Shown one piece after another: positions 4,701 through 25,965 of a DNA stretch of 29,044 nt (position 1 is the stretch's first letter; every line of letters begins with the position of its first letter). A program made the position numbers and the translations under genes. The notes under the pieces were generated by a model that saw only the letters and a program-made list of their open reading frames with translations, searched no databases and had not been told where the DNA came from. The stretch comes from a virus: positions 1 to 29,044 of the IMG/VR virus record IMGVR_UViG_3300023216_001562. The stretch is one strand, 5' to 3'.

Positions 4701-5941
4701 AGAATTATCGTAGTGATTTTGTTATAAAGAAAATAGATTTTACAGGAGCCCTGACTCGAATTTTAAACGGTCGTCAGTGGAACGAATCACACATCCCAGG
4801 CACACTCGCCACGCCTTATGAACTTTGGCGTACTAGGGTCTATCACATTCCGGCATCGTATGCTCGTCCTTTGTTTGTGGATGATCCACGATTTCGAGAT
4901 GCCATTATCCCTAGCCAGATAATGCCTGGTGCCCCATCTCCTACGGTCGTCACTTCAGAATTAGATGAGGTTGTTCGCTATTTGACATCGCTAGATCCTA
5001 GTGACAACAAACCAGGAGTGCCCACTTATGATAACATGTTAACTTTTGTAATAGCGGTTGCTTCAGGAGAGAATTGCGGCAAGATTCTTCTCCCCGATGC
5101 TATTCCAAGCGCAGATCCTCCACCCATAACAATTAGCTTAGACACATTCGAAACACTTCCTTTTGATTATGGTGGGAGTTTCCCAGACGAGCCCCCCCGC
5201 GAAAAAGATTGGGTATTATCTTTTGGAGATGTCGAGGAATATTCTAATAAGCGAGAACAATATACTCAAGCCATAATCGACCACCCACGTCTGCTAAGGG
5301 AATGGGAGTTACGAAAACTCGCATATGATAATTGGGTTATTGCTTACGCTGATTGGCTCACCCTTCCGCGCTTAAGTTTTGATAATTTGTATTTGCATAA
5401 TCCACCCGTTCTTCGATCTCCTGGTGAATATGTCCGATCTTTTGAAACCGACATTGATTTGTTACAAACTTATACATTGAATTTTTATAACTCTTATGTG
5501 GCGAAGCACCCCTTCATTGTCACTAGCCAATTTAATAAATGTGGAGACGGAACATTACAGAAGATAGAGACTCGCGAATTGTTGAGTGGCGTAGAACTTA
5601 TGCGAACATATGACGATTTGTTTTGGCTTAAGTTTTATTTTGCTATACGCATTTCTGAATCAGATCGAATCTTATCCTTTAGTGAAGAGGATGCGATGAT
5701 AAAACAGATAGAAAATCTCTATTCCAATTCATTGGCATCAAGTGATTCCAATAAATTTACGAAAGCACTACAGAGGATTGCATTTGAGACTAACGGGGTC
5801 TTCGAGGACAAATCAGGATTGACGGTTCAAAACAAAGATGATAAAATAATAAATAAATTCAAAAATATAACTGAACAAAAAACCTTGACCTTGCGTGATG
5901 TCTATGATATTGTTCTACCTGATGGATCTTTCCAACCATAA
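1754..5941 (+). CDS. Large virion structural protein (1395 aa) with PKD-like domain
   Basis: I do not recognise the family as a whole. Residues about 460-557 look like a PKD/Ig-type beta domain (LLDASDSKINYL, then Y-x-W, then REGSHTIQLTLTDNNGD), a fold common in secreted and virion surface proteins. The rest is rich in Pro, Trp and Tyr with no transmembrane segment or signal peptide. The C-terminal 100 residues turn helical and charged. A purine-rich GAGGAG at 1735-1740 and TAAGG at 1741-1745 precede the ATG. Size, composition and position directly after a hub-like gene point to a baseplate or tail-fibre-attachment protein; that role is inferred. Its last 20 bases overlap the next gene, where a promoter for the replication block is embedded. 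Confidence 0.6.
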   Translation: MAKKKNKEIPLVDAYLTSEVLSNLKPKPGEEIKPVATNSMPSEELFIERKEYKELAYPYSNDEVPTPIDIWYNRGLYGKIDTDYNPVFVDEKYLKRLPSETGDTFALNFVVDAFTDLQNYMRIAANEGKIFTEDTKFLAMEPKRGWTSVQNRYYEHITVMYEGFAATFLDQGKNKRELTDFKDFMKLFQTYLKTVQPDFPFTRTGYITSKYCPITTTGIVIELELASHGDDQVKYDDYIGDVNFVFFTRTARLFGFWVDKNAPWRLIADLKSEVMQKYMSRYPEAPVEPPLSGSQPQLPLPCAPEWFGDLKNQKVEFKKPGREDGIGYIAELLDCNDPLRSRFKIQEVVDEIEIELIQSTDVIVPKIQYADGHNSSVDSKRTAAQIINIAAPHMSGVGTAGRGQPEASAYGRSYLSRYRWLTAPLPEVRNGQTLRETVEKYYVESSTYFTRQSGLGAFKPQPILLDASDSKINYLNENITKYNWKVLEDSDFPNQQTQFFLTPDTSGGPLSSTDGITTPTPQIYFIPVREGSHTIQLTLTDNNGDLRDEEAIVTLNLCTLDWQKTADDFILTPGIDAAEAFGPDWIYSKLKDEIAQVWAEWNQKSNEEWFKWLSSVRNEKLENIMGGTPAERQWLPYSLAASTAPTGPIFPFPYKRQSAAAIESFRAGNWSSPEIEPSIGGPNDPLCQGALLGDDQLPQTGELEFLRTRLGWDIVGKYKLLTAWIQYLMFEPSGAFVETVPRLLYPVLATHNTWKRLLIRAEIGPDIYLTSTGFNAVGLGTANCLHQFVYNQWQARNLSAPAAFGQSANHRYDFHPPPLYGNCATKIERYNLLSPTGASGGFPIKDYIFRGPSASGAARQGYQSYKVPTAVNLTSLLPREKGLNDNQMGNMFGGALADLFEIILVVSRQLLGGAPVRELTGNVNPPNFPGVPPISPEPLLEHFTFTEWFTGFAREPFSGMGVVPFAPFWQRLPSGPGIGSVDENYRSDFVIKKIDFTGALTRILNGRQWNESHIPGTLATPYELWRTRVYHIPASYARPLFVDDPRFRDAIIPSQIMPGAPSPTVVTSELDEVVRYLTSLDPSDNKPGVPTYDNMLTFVIAVASGENCGKILLPDAIPSADPPPITISLDTFETLPFDYGGSFPDEPPREKDWVLSFGDVEEYSNKREQYTQAIIDHPRLLREWELRKLAYDNWVIAYADWLTLPRLSFDNLYLHNPPVLRSPGEYVRSFETDIDLLQTYTLNFYNSYVAKHPFIVTSQFNKCGDGTLQKIETRELLSGVELMRTYDDLFWLKFYFAIRISESDRILSFSEEDAMIKQIENLYSNSLASSDSNKFTKALQRIAFETNGVFEDKSGLTVQNKDDKIINKFKNITEQKTLTLRDVYDIVLPDGSFQP
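5885..5913 (+). promoter_or_regulatory. Candidate sigma70-type promoter for the polA-like gene (leaderless layout)
   Basis: TTGACC (5885-5890), a 17-base spacer, then TATTGT (5908-5913), and the ATG at 5922 after 8 bases. Transcription would begin at or within one or two bases of the start codon. There is no Shine-Dalgarno sequence before this ATG. The site lies inside the 3' end of the preceding structural gene, at the boundary between the virion block and the replication block. Confidence 0.45.
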
Positions 5942-11454: not shown

Positions 11455-11481
11455 TTGACACCTTTGAACCACTCTTATACG
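11455..11481 (+). promoter_or_regulatory. Candidate promoter upstream of the helicase gene
   Basis: A perfect TTGACA (11455-11460) lies in the 64-base gap before the helicase gene. The best -10 match is TATACG (11476-11481) with a short 15-base spacer; TACGCT with 17 bases is weaker. The leader would be about 25 bases and contains AGGA at 11496-11499. The spacing is not ideal, so the call is tentative. Confidence 0.4.
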
Positions 11482-11512
11482 CTTACAGAATATTCAGGAA
11501 TCGAGACTTACA

Positions 11513-12889
11513 ATGACCTTAAAAACCGACACCCCCTCATTTTCAAAATATGGCAAATCCTTTCAGGAAAAACTAGCCTTTCTTATATTAGATGATCGCG
11601 TCTTTGCTGATCGGATGGTAGAAGTGTTGGATGTTGAGTTTTTAGAATTCAAACATCTGCAAGTTTTTGTTCAAAAAATATTCAATTACAAAACAAAATA
11701 CGGGACACAGCCATCGACTGAAATAATGAAGACGATTGTTAGATCTCAAATCGAAGACGAAAATGAAATACTTCAGAAACAAATAAGAGAATATTTTGCT
11801 CACGTCTTATCTGATATTACAATATTACAGTCAGCCGAATTTGTAAAAGACACCGCTTTGGAATTCTGCCGTAAGCAGAAGTTACGAGAGGCGATGATAA
11901 AATCATCTACACTCCTCCAAAAATGTTCTTTTGATGAGATTTCTGTACTCATAAATGATGCGTTGAAGGCTGGTGCCAATACAGATTTTGGTTATGATTA
12001 TATCAAAGATTTTGAAAAAAGATTTGAACTTAGTACCCGCGAAACAATCACCACGGGATGGGAAAAAGTAGATCAGCTCACCGGGGGTGGTGGTGGTCGA
12101 AAAGAATTAGGTGTTGTAATCGCCCCCACTGGCGTAGGGAAGTCAATGGTGCTAGTTCATCTTGGCGCAACTGCCTTGAAAGCCGGAATGACCGTTGTTC
12201 ATTACACGCTTGAGTTAGGTGATACTGTCATTGCTAGTCGTTACGATTCTTGTATCACAGGAATTCGTTTGAATGAAGTCAAGGATCGTAAAGCGGACAT
12301 AAAGAAAACCTTAGATGGTCTAGATGGAAACCTGATCATAAAAGAATATCCTACAAAAACAGCTACCACTAATACCATTCGGGCTCATCTGGAAAAGCTC
12401 AAACAACAAGGCATGAATCCTGATATGATTATTGTTGATTACGCGGATCTGTTACGCACATTGTCTGTGCGTAAAGAAAAGAGAGAAGAATTAGAATCGA
12501 TCTATGAAGACCTCCGCGCAATTATGCAAGAAAATAATTGTGTTGGATGGACAGCTTCTCAAACTAACCGAACAGGGCTCAATCAAGAAATTATCACCAT
12601 GCAAGCAATCTCCGAGGCATTCAATAAATGCTTTATCGCGGACTTTATCTTCTCTGTTTCAAGAACATCAGAAGATAAACAAACAAATGGTGGAAGAATT
12701 TATATTGCCAAGAATAGAAACGGCCCGGACGGCGTGGTGTTCTCTATCTTTATGGACCCGGCAAACGTTGATATTAAGGTGTTAGGGAAATATGAAAACG
12801 ATGCGGCATCATCACCAGCACTCTCAAACGAAGAACAGGTTAAATTTATGTTAGACAAATACAAAAAACTAATAAAGGGGATGAATTAG
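11513..12889 (+). CDS. Replicative DNA helicase (DnaB/T4 gp41-like)
   Basis: 458 aa, the size of T4 gp41 (475). An N-terminal helical domain (about 1-155) precedes a RecA-like ATPase core: Walker A APTGVGKS at 204-211, then HYTLELGDTVIASRYD (the DnaB H1a/H2 region with the catalytic Glu), Walker B MIIVDYADLL with D309 near 305-313, and a GWTASQTNR segment (motif H3 Gln). The C-terminus has YIAKNRNGPDG, matching the DnaB H4/arginine-finger region. It would unwind the fork as a hexamer. No primase gene is seen nearby, so a partner primase must be elsewhere. RBS is only weak (AGGA, 13 bases). Confidence 0.88.
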   Translation: MTLKTDTPSFSKYGKSFQEKLAFLILDDRVFADRMVEVLDVEFLEFKHLQVFVQKIFNYKTKYGTQPSTEIMKTIVRSQIEDENEILQKQIREYFAHVLSDITILQSAEFVKDTALEFCRKQKLREAMIKSSTLLQKCSFDEISVLINDALKAGANTDFGYDYIKDFEKRFELSTRETITTGWEKVDQLTGGGGGRKELGVVIAPTGVGKSMVLVHLGATALKAGMTVVHYTLELGDTVIASRYDSCITGIRLNEVKDRKADIKKTLDGLDGNLIIKEYPTKTATTNTIRAHLEKLKQQGMNPDMIIVDYADLLRTLSVRKEKREELESIYEDLRAIMQENNCVGWTASQTNRTGLNQEIITMQAISEAFNKCFIADFIFSVSRTSEDKQTNGGRIYIAKNRNGPDGVVFSIFMDPANVDIKVLGKYENDAASSPALSNEEQVKFMLDKYKKLIKGMN

Positions 12890-17934: not shown

Positions 17935-18853
17935 AGAAAACATCGTTAACGTTAATTCGTTTCATCTTGCTGGTATTGTTCCTGTGTCCGGGCAGCGGTT
18001 GGATTATAATTTACCTTGGCACGATTGCCTTCAGCCCATAGCACAAAACTTTTTAGCAGTCGAACGAGCCGTGTTGGAGTGTGCCACCGCAGGATGCGAA
18101 ACAATTTGGATTGTCTGCGACTCTAAAATGCAACCATTAATAAAGCACAGACTAGGAGAGATGGTTGAAGATCCTGCTTGGATTGGGCGAAAGTTTGATA
18201 CCTTCCCCAGTGAAAGTAAAAAAGCAATTCCTATTTATTATGTCGAGATACACCCCAAAGATCAGAGGAAAAAAGAATCATTGGTGTGGAGTATTATCTA
18301 CGGCGCAAAAGTGGCTCACAAAACTTGCTATCAATTATCTAAATGGGTAACACCAGATAAATATTATGTAGCGTTTTCTTATGGAGTGTTCCCATCACAA
18401 CACATACGCAAATGGAGAGAAACAATATCCAGACCAGGAAACTTTTTACTAACCACACCAGAAGGTAATTCAGTGATCGATAATGAATACATCGGTTTTG
18501 CATTTGATGCAAGTGAGGTGACAAGATTTTCACAATTGTTTTGGAAAAAAGCCACAGGAGAATTTGATCCAAACTCTCCACTGAGAGATGGAAAATATCC
18601 CATCAACAAACTACCGTTCTCCGAAAGACACTCAGGAAGATATTTTGATCTCAAAGATATTTTTGAAGCCATTGATACTCAAAAGCCAACTACTTGGATT
18701 GAGATGGAATGGTATTATGACATAAGTACATGGGAAGGTTATTGCAAGTATATTGGCTCAGAACATCAAAAGTTAATGAATCGCCCCAAGTCAGATATGT
18801 TAAGATATAGAACTTGGAAGAAAATTGGTATAGATGATGAAGAAAACACTTGA
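17912..18853 (+). CDS. Nucleotidyltransferase-like (GT-A fold) protein
   Basis: 313 aa. HLAGIVPVSGQRLDYNL, then PIAQNFLAVERAVLECATAG and ETIWIVC follow the order of sugar-nucleotide transferases (AGGxGTRL, then K-P...P-I-x-x-K-P-L-I, then a-G-x-x-x-I-v-v-v). The usual catalytic Asp region after the second half ('vlvLxGD') is replaced by YYVAFSYGVF, and the glycine-rich loop is degenerate, so activity may be changed. The C-terminus has several Trp/Tyr-rich segments (WIEMEWYYDISTWEGY). It overlaps the preceding gene by 23 bases and lies after a cupin of the ManC type, so a sugar-nucleotide role is suggested but unproven. Confidence 0.5.
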   Translation: MPQEYSSEENIVNVNSFHLAGIVPVSGQRLDYNLPWHDCLQPIAQNFLAVERAVLECATAGCETIWIVCDSKMQPLIKHRLGEMVEDPAWIGRKFDTFPSESKKAIPIYYVEIHPKDQRKKESLVWSIIYGAKVAHKTCYQLSKWVTPDKYYVAFSYGVFPSQHIRKWRETISRPGNFLLTTPEGNSVIDNEYIGFAFDASEVTRFSQLFWKKATGEFDPNSPLRDGKYPINKLPFSERHSGRYFDLKDIFEAIDTQKPTTWIEMEWYYDISTWEGYCKYIGSEHQKLMNRPKSDMLRYRTWKKIGIDDEENT

Positions 18854-18878
18854 CAACCACTTAGAATTCAGATAACAT
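18850..18878 (+). promoter_or_regulatory. Consensus promoter for dnaE, leaderless layout
   Basis: TTGACA (18850-18855, perfect), 17-base spacer, TAACAT (18873-18878, 4 of 6), then 7 bases to ATG 18886. The expected start of transcription coincides with the A of the start codon. No Shine-Dalgarno sequence precedes the ATG (GATAACATACACAGT). The -35 box overlaps the stop region of the preceding gene. Confidence 0.65.
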
Positions 18879-18885
18879 ACACAGT

Positions 18886-24630: not shown

Positions 24631-24664
24631 TATGGTTTTTTGTCTCATTGGACACTATTTATTG

Positions 24665-24689
24665 TATAAACCGATTAAGTTTTAAGGAG
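24665..24689 (+). promoter_or_regulatory. Intergenic region before the acidic protein gene: TATAAA box and strong RBS
   Basis: The 70-base gap contains TATAAA (24665-24670) and a strong AAGGAG (24684-24689) 11 bases before ATG 24701. No good -35 box was found at 16-18 bases, so the TATAAA could be a late promoter of the T4 type (consensus TATAAATA) that relies on a phage factor, or be chance. Confidence 0.3.
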
Positions 24690-25423: not shown

Positions 25424-25448
25424 AGTTCGCAATCTAAACCTGGCTTAT

Positions 25449-25479
25449 GCCTGAAAAAATAGCCATATTTTCCGCAGGC
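25449..25479 (+). terminator. Hairpin after the acidic protein gene, possible weak terminator
   Basis: GCCTG (25449-25453) pairs with CAGGC (25475-25479), and inside it AAAATA (25456-25461) pairs with TATTTT (25466-25471) across a 4-base loop. Only three T follow, so termination would be weak. It stands in the gap between two transcription units, just upstream of a promoter, which supports a boundary role. Confidence 0.4.
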
Positions 25480-25514
25480 TTTCACATTGGGATATTTTTA
25501 TCTCTCACAATAAT

Positions 25515-25543
25515 TTTACTTTTACTGAGTGATTGTGTATAAT
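25515..25543 (+). promoter_or_regulatory. Promoter for the membrane protein/ClpP/lysis operon (leaderless layout)
   Basis: TTTACT (25515-25520), 17-base spacer, TATAAT (25538-25543, perfect consensus), then 8 bases to ATG 25552. The start of transcription would fall within a couple of bases of the ATG. No Shine-Dalgarno sequence is present upstream of the ATG. This is the same arrangement as before the polA-like and dnaE genes. Confidence 0.6.
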
Positions 25544-25551
25544 AATAACTA

Positions 25552-25965
25552 ATGGAAGACGCAAACTTTGTCTTGTTAGTTATTGGTTTTTTTATTGGTT
25601 ACGTTATCAAATCATTTTTGACTTTCCGTTCTGGTTGGTCCGCAACCGCACACCTTGTTCAAAAGGTTGGCGATCAATGCCTCAAACTTATGGGCACCAT
25701 CGTCTATAAAGTTTCTTTTATGGATCAGCTATATCAGCGATCAATTGCCTTGACATTAGATTCAGAACTTGCTAAACTTAAACGTAATGAGTTAGACAAC
25801 GAGTTTGATGATTGGAAAAAAGAAACAATACAACTTTTTAAGGAACACTATCCAGAAGACTACAAGTGGCAACTTGAAGTTTTTGATTGGAAAAGTGCCA
25901 TGAGAGTTTTGACTGATATTTATCAAGAAGACAGATACAAGGAAGCGGATAATGACGACCAATGA
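25552..25965 (+). CDS. Membrane-anchored protein of unknown function (137 aa)
   Basis: One N-terminal transmembrane helix (residues about 5-24, FVLLVIGFFIGYVIKSFL), no signal-peptidase site, then an amphipathic region (WSATAHLVQKVGDQCLKLMG) and a soluble domain with coiled-coil character and a Trp-rich end (YKWQLEVFDWKSAMRVLTDI). The soluble part probably lies in the cytoplasm. It is the first gene of a unit that goes on to a ClpP-like protease and an endolysin. A holin role is not supported: single anchor and a large folded tail. The start follows a promoter without RBS. Overlaps the next gene by 14 bases. Confidence 0.65.
   Translation: MEDANFVLLVIGFFIGYVIKSFLTFRSGWSATAHLVQKVGDQCLKLMGTIVYKVSFMDQLYQRSIALTLDSELAKLKRNELDNEFDDWKKETIQLFKEHYPEDYKWQLEVFDWKSAMRVLTDIYQEDRYKEADNDDQ

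Follow-up and report, generated by a model that had tools for sequence, protein, structure and literature searches.

The window analysed here, i.e. the whole 29,044-base virus record, has a GC content of 40% and carries all its sizeable genes on the + strand, where all the window features described below also lie. The genes include those for a family-A polymerase, gp32-like and RecA-like proteins, a 5'-3' exonuclease, a DnaB-like protein, ribonucleotide reductase, DnaE, a ClpP-like protein and an amidase. No near match was found when the window was compared by megablast with 50,697 phage records, and the identity of DnaE to that of cultured phages does not exceed about 31%, the best among the matches listed. 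GTDB gave a single match, a distant relative located on a MAG contig, and many relatives of the window phage are present in IMG/VR. The contigs used for comparison are G2 (151.5 kb) and G1 (68 kb), whose DnaE is 95% identical to that of the window, G4 (156.6 kb, the contig of L015) and G5 (40.6 kb, the contig of L017), both at 76%, and a large outer group from IMG/VR at 62-65%. Genes were called on the contigs by using tables trained on G2 and G4.

The hexamer TTTACT, a candidate -35 box, is found at 25515-25520; a 17-nt spacer separates it from TATAAT (25538-25543), a candidate -10 box, and 8 nt (AATAACTA) separate the latter from the ATG at 25552. The gene starting at this codon (25552-25965, 137 codons) encodes a 137-aa product with an N-terminal hydrophobic stretch and no match in Pfam or PHROG. 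The original prediction had described a promoter placed directly on a start codon devoid of a ribosome binding site; letters and coordinates were found to be exact, and no Shine-Dalgarno (SD)-like sequence was found before the ATG. The TTTACT box shows only a 4/6 match. The region 25496-25559 is invariant in four close relatives, which is marginally unusual (p ~0.04). Homologues of the gene are preceded by TTGAAT-17-TATACT-7-ATG in L015 and by TTGATT-17-TATACT-7-ATG in L017 and L128, also with no SD. RNA polymerase starts transcription 7-9 nt past the -10 box, so that the transcript would begin at the AUG itself; from this spacing, a start at about 25550-25552 is predicted. In the outer relatives L039, L080 and L067, a promoter precedes the homologue of gene 25552 and is directly followed, before the start codon, by a GC hairpin and a T-run resembling a terminator.

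The 128-nt gap upstream of ATG 25552 holds a small ORF of 31 codons (25447-25542), missed in the original prediction, which probably encodes a small membrane protein (MPEKIAIFSAGFHIGIFLSLTIILLLLSDCV) and overlaps both boxes. Its stop codon falls inside the -10 box, the last codons reading GTA TAA T. The small ORF is 97% conserved in close relatives, where three of the four variable sites are silent; it is 47% identical in G4, and a homologous frame is present in G5 and L128. A gene of this size lies below the usual annotation cut-offs; it precedes the 25552 family in several relatives and overlaps iscU in G4.

The clearest promoter-on-ATG case is dnaE, the gene for the replicative DNA polymerase, which is stronger than the 25552 site. 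In the window, TTGACA-17-TAACAT and the 7 nt behind it (18850-18885) directly precede ATG 18886, with no SD. All clade members in which the start is covered, 11 distinct sequences, show the arrangement TTGAC[AT]-17-TAnnAT-6/7-ATG, and no SD is found in any of them. Their mean pairwise identity is 0.95 for the -35 box, 0.38 for the spacer and 0.77 for the -10 box. Conserved hexamers 16-18 nt apart, with a drifting spacer, were taken as the mark of a sigma70-type promoter, and are found both in dnaE and in the homologues of gene 25552. The N-terminus of DnaE aligns from residue 1-2, so that a later start codon is no option. The promoter-on-ATG layout is absent from the listed dnaE relatives at 65% identity or less, where the gene mostly has a GGAG-type SD or starts at the end of the preceding ORF. 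In the dnaE tree, the sequences with the promoter on the ATG form one group with 100/100 support, corresponding to one change.

Similar layouts were found at other genes, described here by d, the distance in nt from the -10 box to the start codon. For the SbcCD-like nuclease, d is 8 in four close relatives, L204 and G4, and 6 in L134; TTGACA promoters are also retained in many of the distant orthologues, where, however, the genes have leaders and an SD. For iscU, d is 7 in G4, 7 in G1 and 6 in G5, and one distant relative has an SD. GroEL shows the leaderless layout in G5 and a leader in G4, and a DnaG-like primase shows the leaderless layout (d 6) at seven loci of another branch. The original prediction had counted two companions of the 25552 site, and the window scan recovered two sites that are likely to be these: dnaE stands, whereas the family-A polymerase site is weak. 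Here TTGACC-17-TATTGT-8 (5885-5921) precedes ATG 5922 within the end of the preceding ORF; d is 8 in the window and G2 and 6 in G5, and the site is uncertain because the start codon is not conserved and the G1 gene is SD-led. Other candidates were discarded. The Hsp20 gene of G4 (140598) has an in-frame ATG downstream with GGAGG before it, the gene called at 142003 in G2 probably starts at d 19 with an SD, and the sites at 111995 in G2 and 8520 in the window (d 3) belong to SD genes and are not promoters. GroEL, IscU (NifU_N) and the Hsp20-like small heat-shock protein are host-like genes carried by the G4 and G5 phage contigs. Genes for tmRNA were also found (Rfam RF00023, ARAGORN) in three relatives, at L096:9655-9995 (-), L120:13215-13461 (-) and L104:10945-11293 (+); the encoded tags are ANNNNHFQSLALAA, ANDNVALSLAA and ANDNVSFDYALAA. 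The tmRNA gene of G4 is preceded by TTGACA-17-TAGAAT.

In order to evaluate the spacing genome-wide, upstream regions of called genes were scanned with a sigma70 matrix (score of at least 10), and each region was compared with 200 dinucleotide shuffles; a d of 6-9 nt was taken as leaderless (TA-led). The enrichment expected from the original prediction was recovered: a -10 box lies 6-8 nt before the start of 3 genes in G2 and 4 in G4, against 0.05 expected in shuffles (p 0.005, the lowest value that this test can give). The same scan of the distant relative G9 gave 0 genes at 6-8 nt, and no clear signal was visible in the distances when a loose threshold for promoters (7.5) was applied. All together, 66 distinct promoter-gene pairs were collected from 584 kb of the clade. 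They include 21 at 6-8 nt, none of which has an SD (0/21), none at 9-10 nt and 6 at 11-14 nt; 11 pairs fall at 20-29 nt, all with an SD (11/11), and the wider range of 20-39 nt holds 22 pairs, of which 18 have an SD. The distribution is two-peaked, and SD-led leaders reappear only from about 19 nt, though the six pairs at 11-14 nt mean that the trough is not empty. Pooled homologous genes are not independent, the 21 pairs corresponding to about six gene families. The outer relatives (1.9 Mb) gave 174 pairs, of which 15 have a d of 6-8 nt; in another 64 d is 20-29 nt, and 53 of these have an SD. For T4, 50 kb were scanned and gave 0 pairs at 6-8 nt, with only 4 pairs in all. An SD is found in 53% of all genes; lack of an SD alone is weak evidence, since about half of all genes are without one by the test used.

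Taken alone, the window site could be a coincidence accompanied by coupled translation, because the end of the small ORF happens to spell a -10 box. TATAAT at 25538 would then be merely GTA TAA T, and 25552 an operon-internal gene without a promoter, reached by termination-reinitiation from a stop codon 9 nt before its ATG; the conservation of the small ORF as a protein, the position of its stop within the box and the lack of an SD at 25552 all fit such an account. However, in relatives at 51% and 39% identity, 32 nt separate the end of the small ORF from the homologue of gene 25552. Since this is the case in L015 and L017, and likewise in L128, coding constraint cannot set the box beside the ATG, yet in all three the promoter still lies 7 nt from it. 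The coincidence also leaves dnaE, the SbcCD-like gene and iscU unexplained. It was rejected as a full explanation of the 25538 box on the grounds of the promoters kept in L015, L017 and L128, and we regard it as rather unlikely.

The promoters might instead be real, with leaders of about 1-8 nt or further promoters upstream, and the genes translated by an SD-independent 30S route relying on S1 and an AT-rich, unstructured start. A d of 8 could place the transcription start 1-2 nt before the ATG, AT-rich flanks are common, and with all genes on one strand, transcripts of upstream genes are likely to read through. The distances speak against this, since they cluster at 6-8 nt, the range of 9-10 nt is empty, and SD-led leaders do not return below about 19 nt; the probability of such an explanation appears small. 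It is smaller still for the idea that the promoter-like boxes close to start codons are chance products of AT-rich sequence. Hexamer matches are indeed common in AT-rich DNA, and the loose threshold shows no distance signal, but the shuffle test, the fixed boxes with variable spacer and the several orthologous sets make chance very improbable in general, and for dnaE the sequence comparison strongly disfavours it.

In this lineage, SD-less starts with the promoter on the ATG are both enriched and conserved, which is best explained by leaderless mRNA at the heads of several transcription units. For these starts as a class we infer leaderless transcripts with good support from the sequence comparison, and TTTACT-17-TATAAT is probably a working sigma70-type promoter giving a leaderless mRNA, one of several such starts in the lineage. 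The host RNA polymerase would use 25515-25543 as a sigma70-type promoter and start at ATG 25552 or within about 2 nt of it. The resulting mRNA would cover the 137-aa gene, and probably also the downstream ClpP-like and amidase genes, and 70S ribosomes would bind its 5'-terminal AUG. The same type of start would probably serve dnaE, iscU and the SbcCD-like nuclease, as well as groEL in some cases and perhaps polA. Since the 3' end of the small ORF lies within the promoter region, translational coupling on read-through transcripts may be an additional route to the product of gene 25552.

The wider rule advanced in the original prediction, that operon heads are leaderless and internal genes SD-led, does not hold: leadered heads occur in the same genomes, and an SD is found in 48-50% of heads as against 53% of all genes. 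In the window, a leadered promoter, TTGACA-17-TACGCT (11455-11512), lies 29 nt before the DnaB-type helicase gene at 11513. A different arrangement is found at 24654-24689, before gene 24701, where the motif ACTATTTAT (24654-24662) is followed by an AAGGAG SD (24684-24689). This motif is enriched before gene heads, often at a distance of 27-55 nt, and is usually accompanied by an SD. Among the 7-mers found upstream of heads, CTATTTA ranks first, with a strong strand bias in G2 of 29 vs 3 in favour of the coding strand, and 21 ACTATTTA sites are present in G2. The ACTATTTAT motif is probably a second, late-type class of phage promoter, also present in G9. Leaderless-type starts coexist with leadered sigma70-type and ACTATTTAT promoters, and there is no rule for all operon heads.

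To our knowledge, leaderless phage mRNAs are mostly single cases, e.g. lambda cI. The suggestion that such starts are unusual for a tailed phage needs softening, because lambda cI, transcribed from PRM, has exactly the same layout: TAGATT-taacgt-ATG, i.e. 6 nt from the -10 box to the ATG, and no SD. It is a standard leaderless mRNA, and leaderless mRNAs are mostly bound by 70S ribosomes at the 5'-terminal AUG (PMC9031893). Like the clade genes, cI has its -10 box directly before the ATG and lacks an SD, but it is only one gene, with a regulatory role, in a temperate phage, whereas the clade shows several genes, mostly of replication/repair or chaperone/metabolic function, in uncultured phages. 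In bacteria, TA-led or -10-adjacent leaderless genes have TANNNT some 10-12 bp upstream of the start codon and no SD (PMC3160421; for Deinococcus-Thermus, PMC12340547). These belong to cellular genomes, and a -10 box by itself often suffices in Deinococcus-Thermus, whereas the phage clade nearly always has a strong -35 box at 17 nt. Leaders of Lactococcus cremoris fall into two classes separated by a gap, one below 5 nt and the other at about 40 nt (PMC10986495); that two-peaked distribution was measured in a host cell, whereas the one of the clade is deduced from phage DNA and has a less empty trough. The giant phage AR9 is no precedent, since its mapped leaders range between 26 and 491 nt (PMC5312081). 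In the part of the literature covered, we found no study that describes a systematic use of leaderless starts in phages of this kind.

Leaderless phage mRNA itself is known; what is new is the occurrence of leaderless-type starts over several genes of one lineage, together with the single switch at dnaE. The findings are a warning for gene finders that rely on SD sequences, and show that missed small genes can be overlapped by a promoter. It is conceivable, though doubtful, that leaderless mRNA serves the lineage as an expression class of its own for replication genes driven by the host polymerase, 70S initiation allowing them to escape SD-led competition or a change in host translation. The leadered and promoter-on-ATG forms of dnaE are both extant in relatives, and the variants of dnaE, GroEL and the DnaG-like primase provide matched pairs with which leaderless initiation could be probed during infection.
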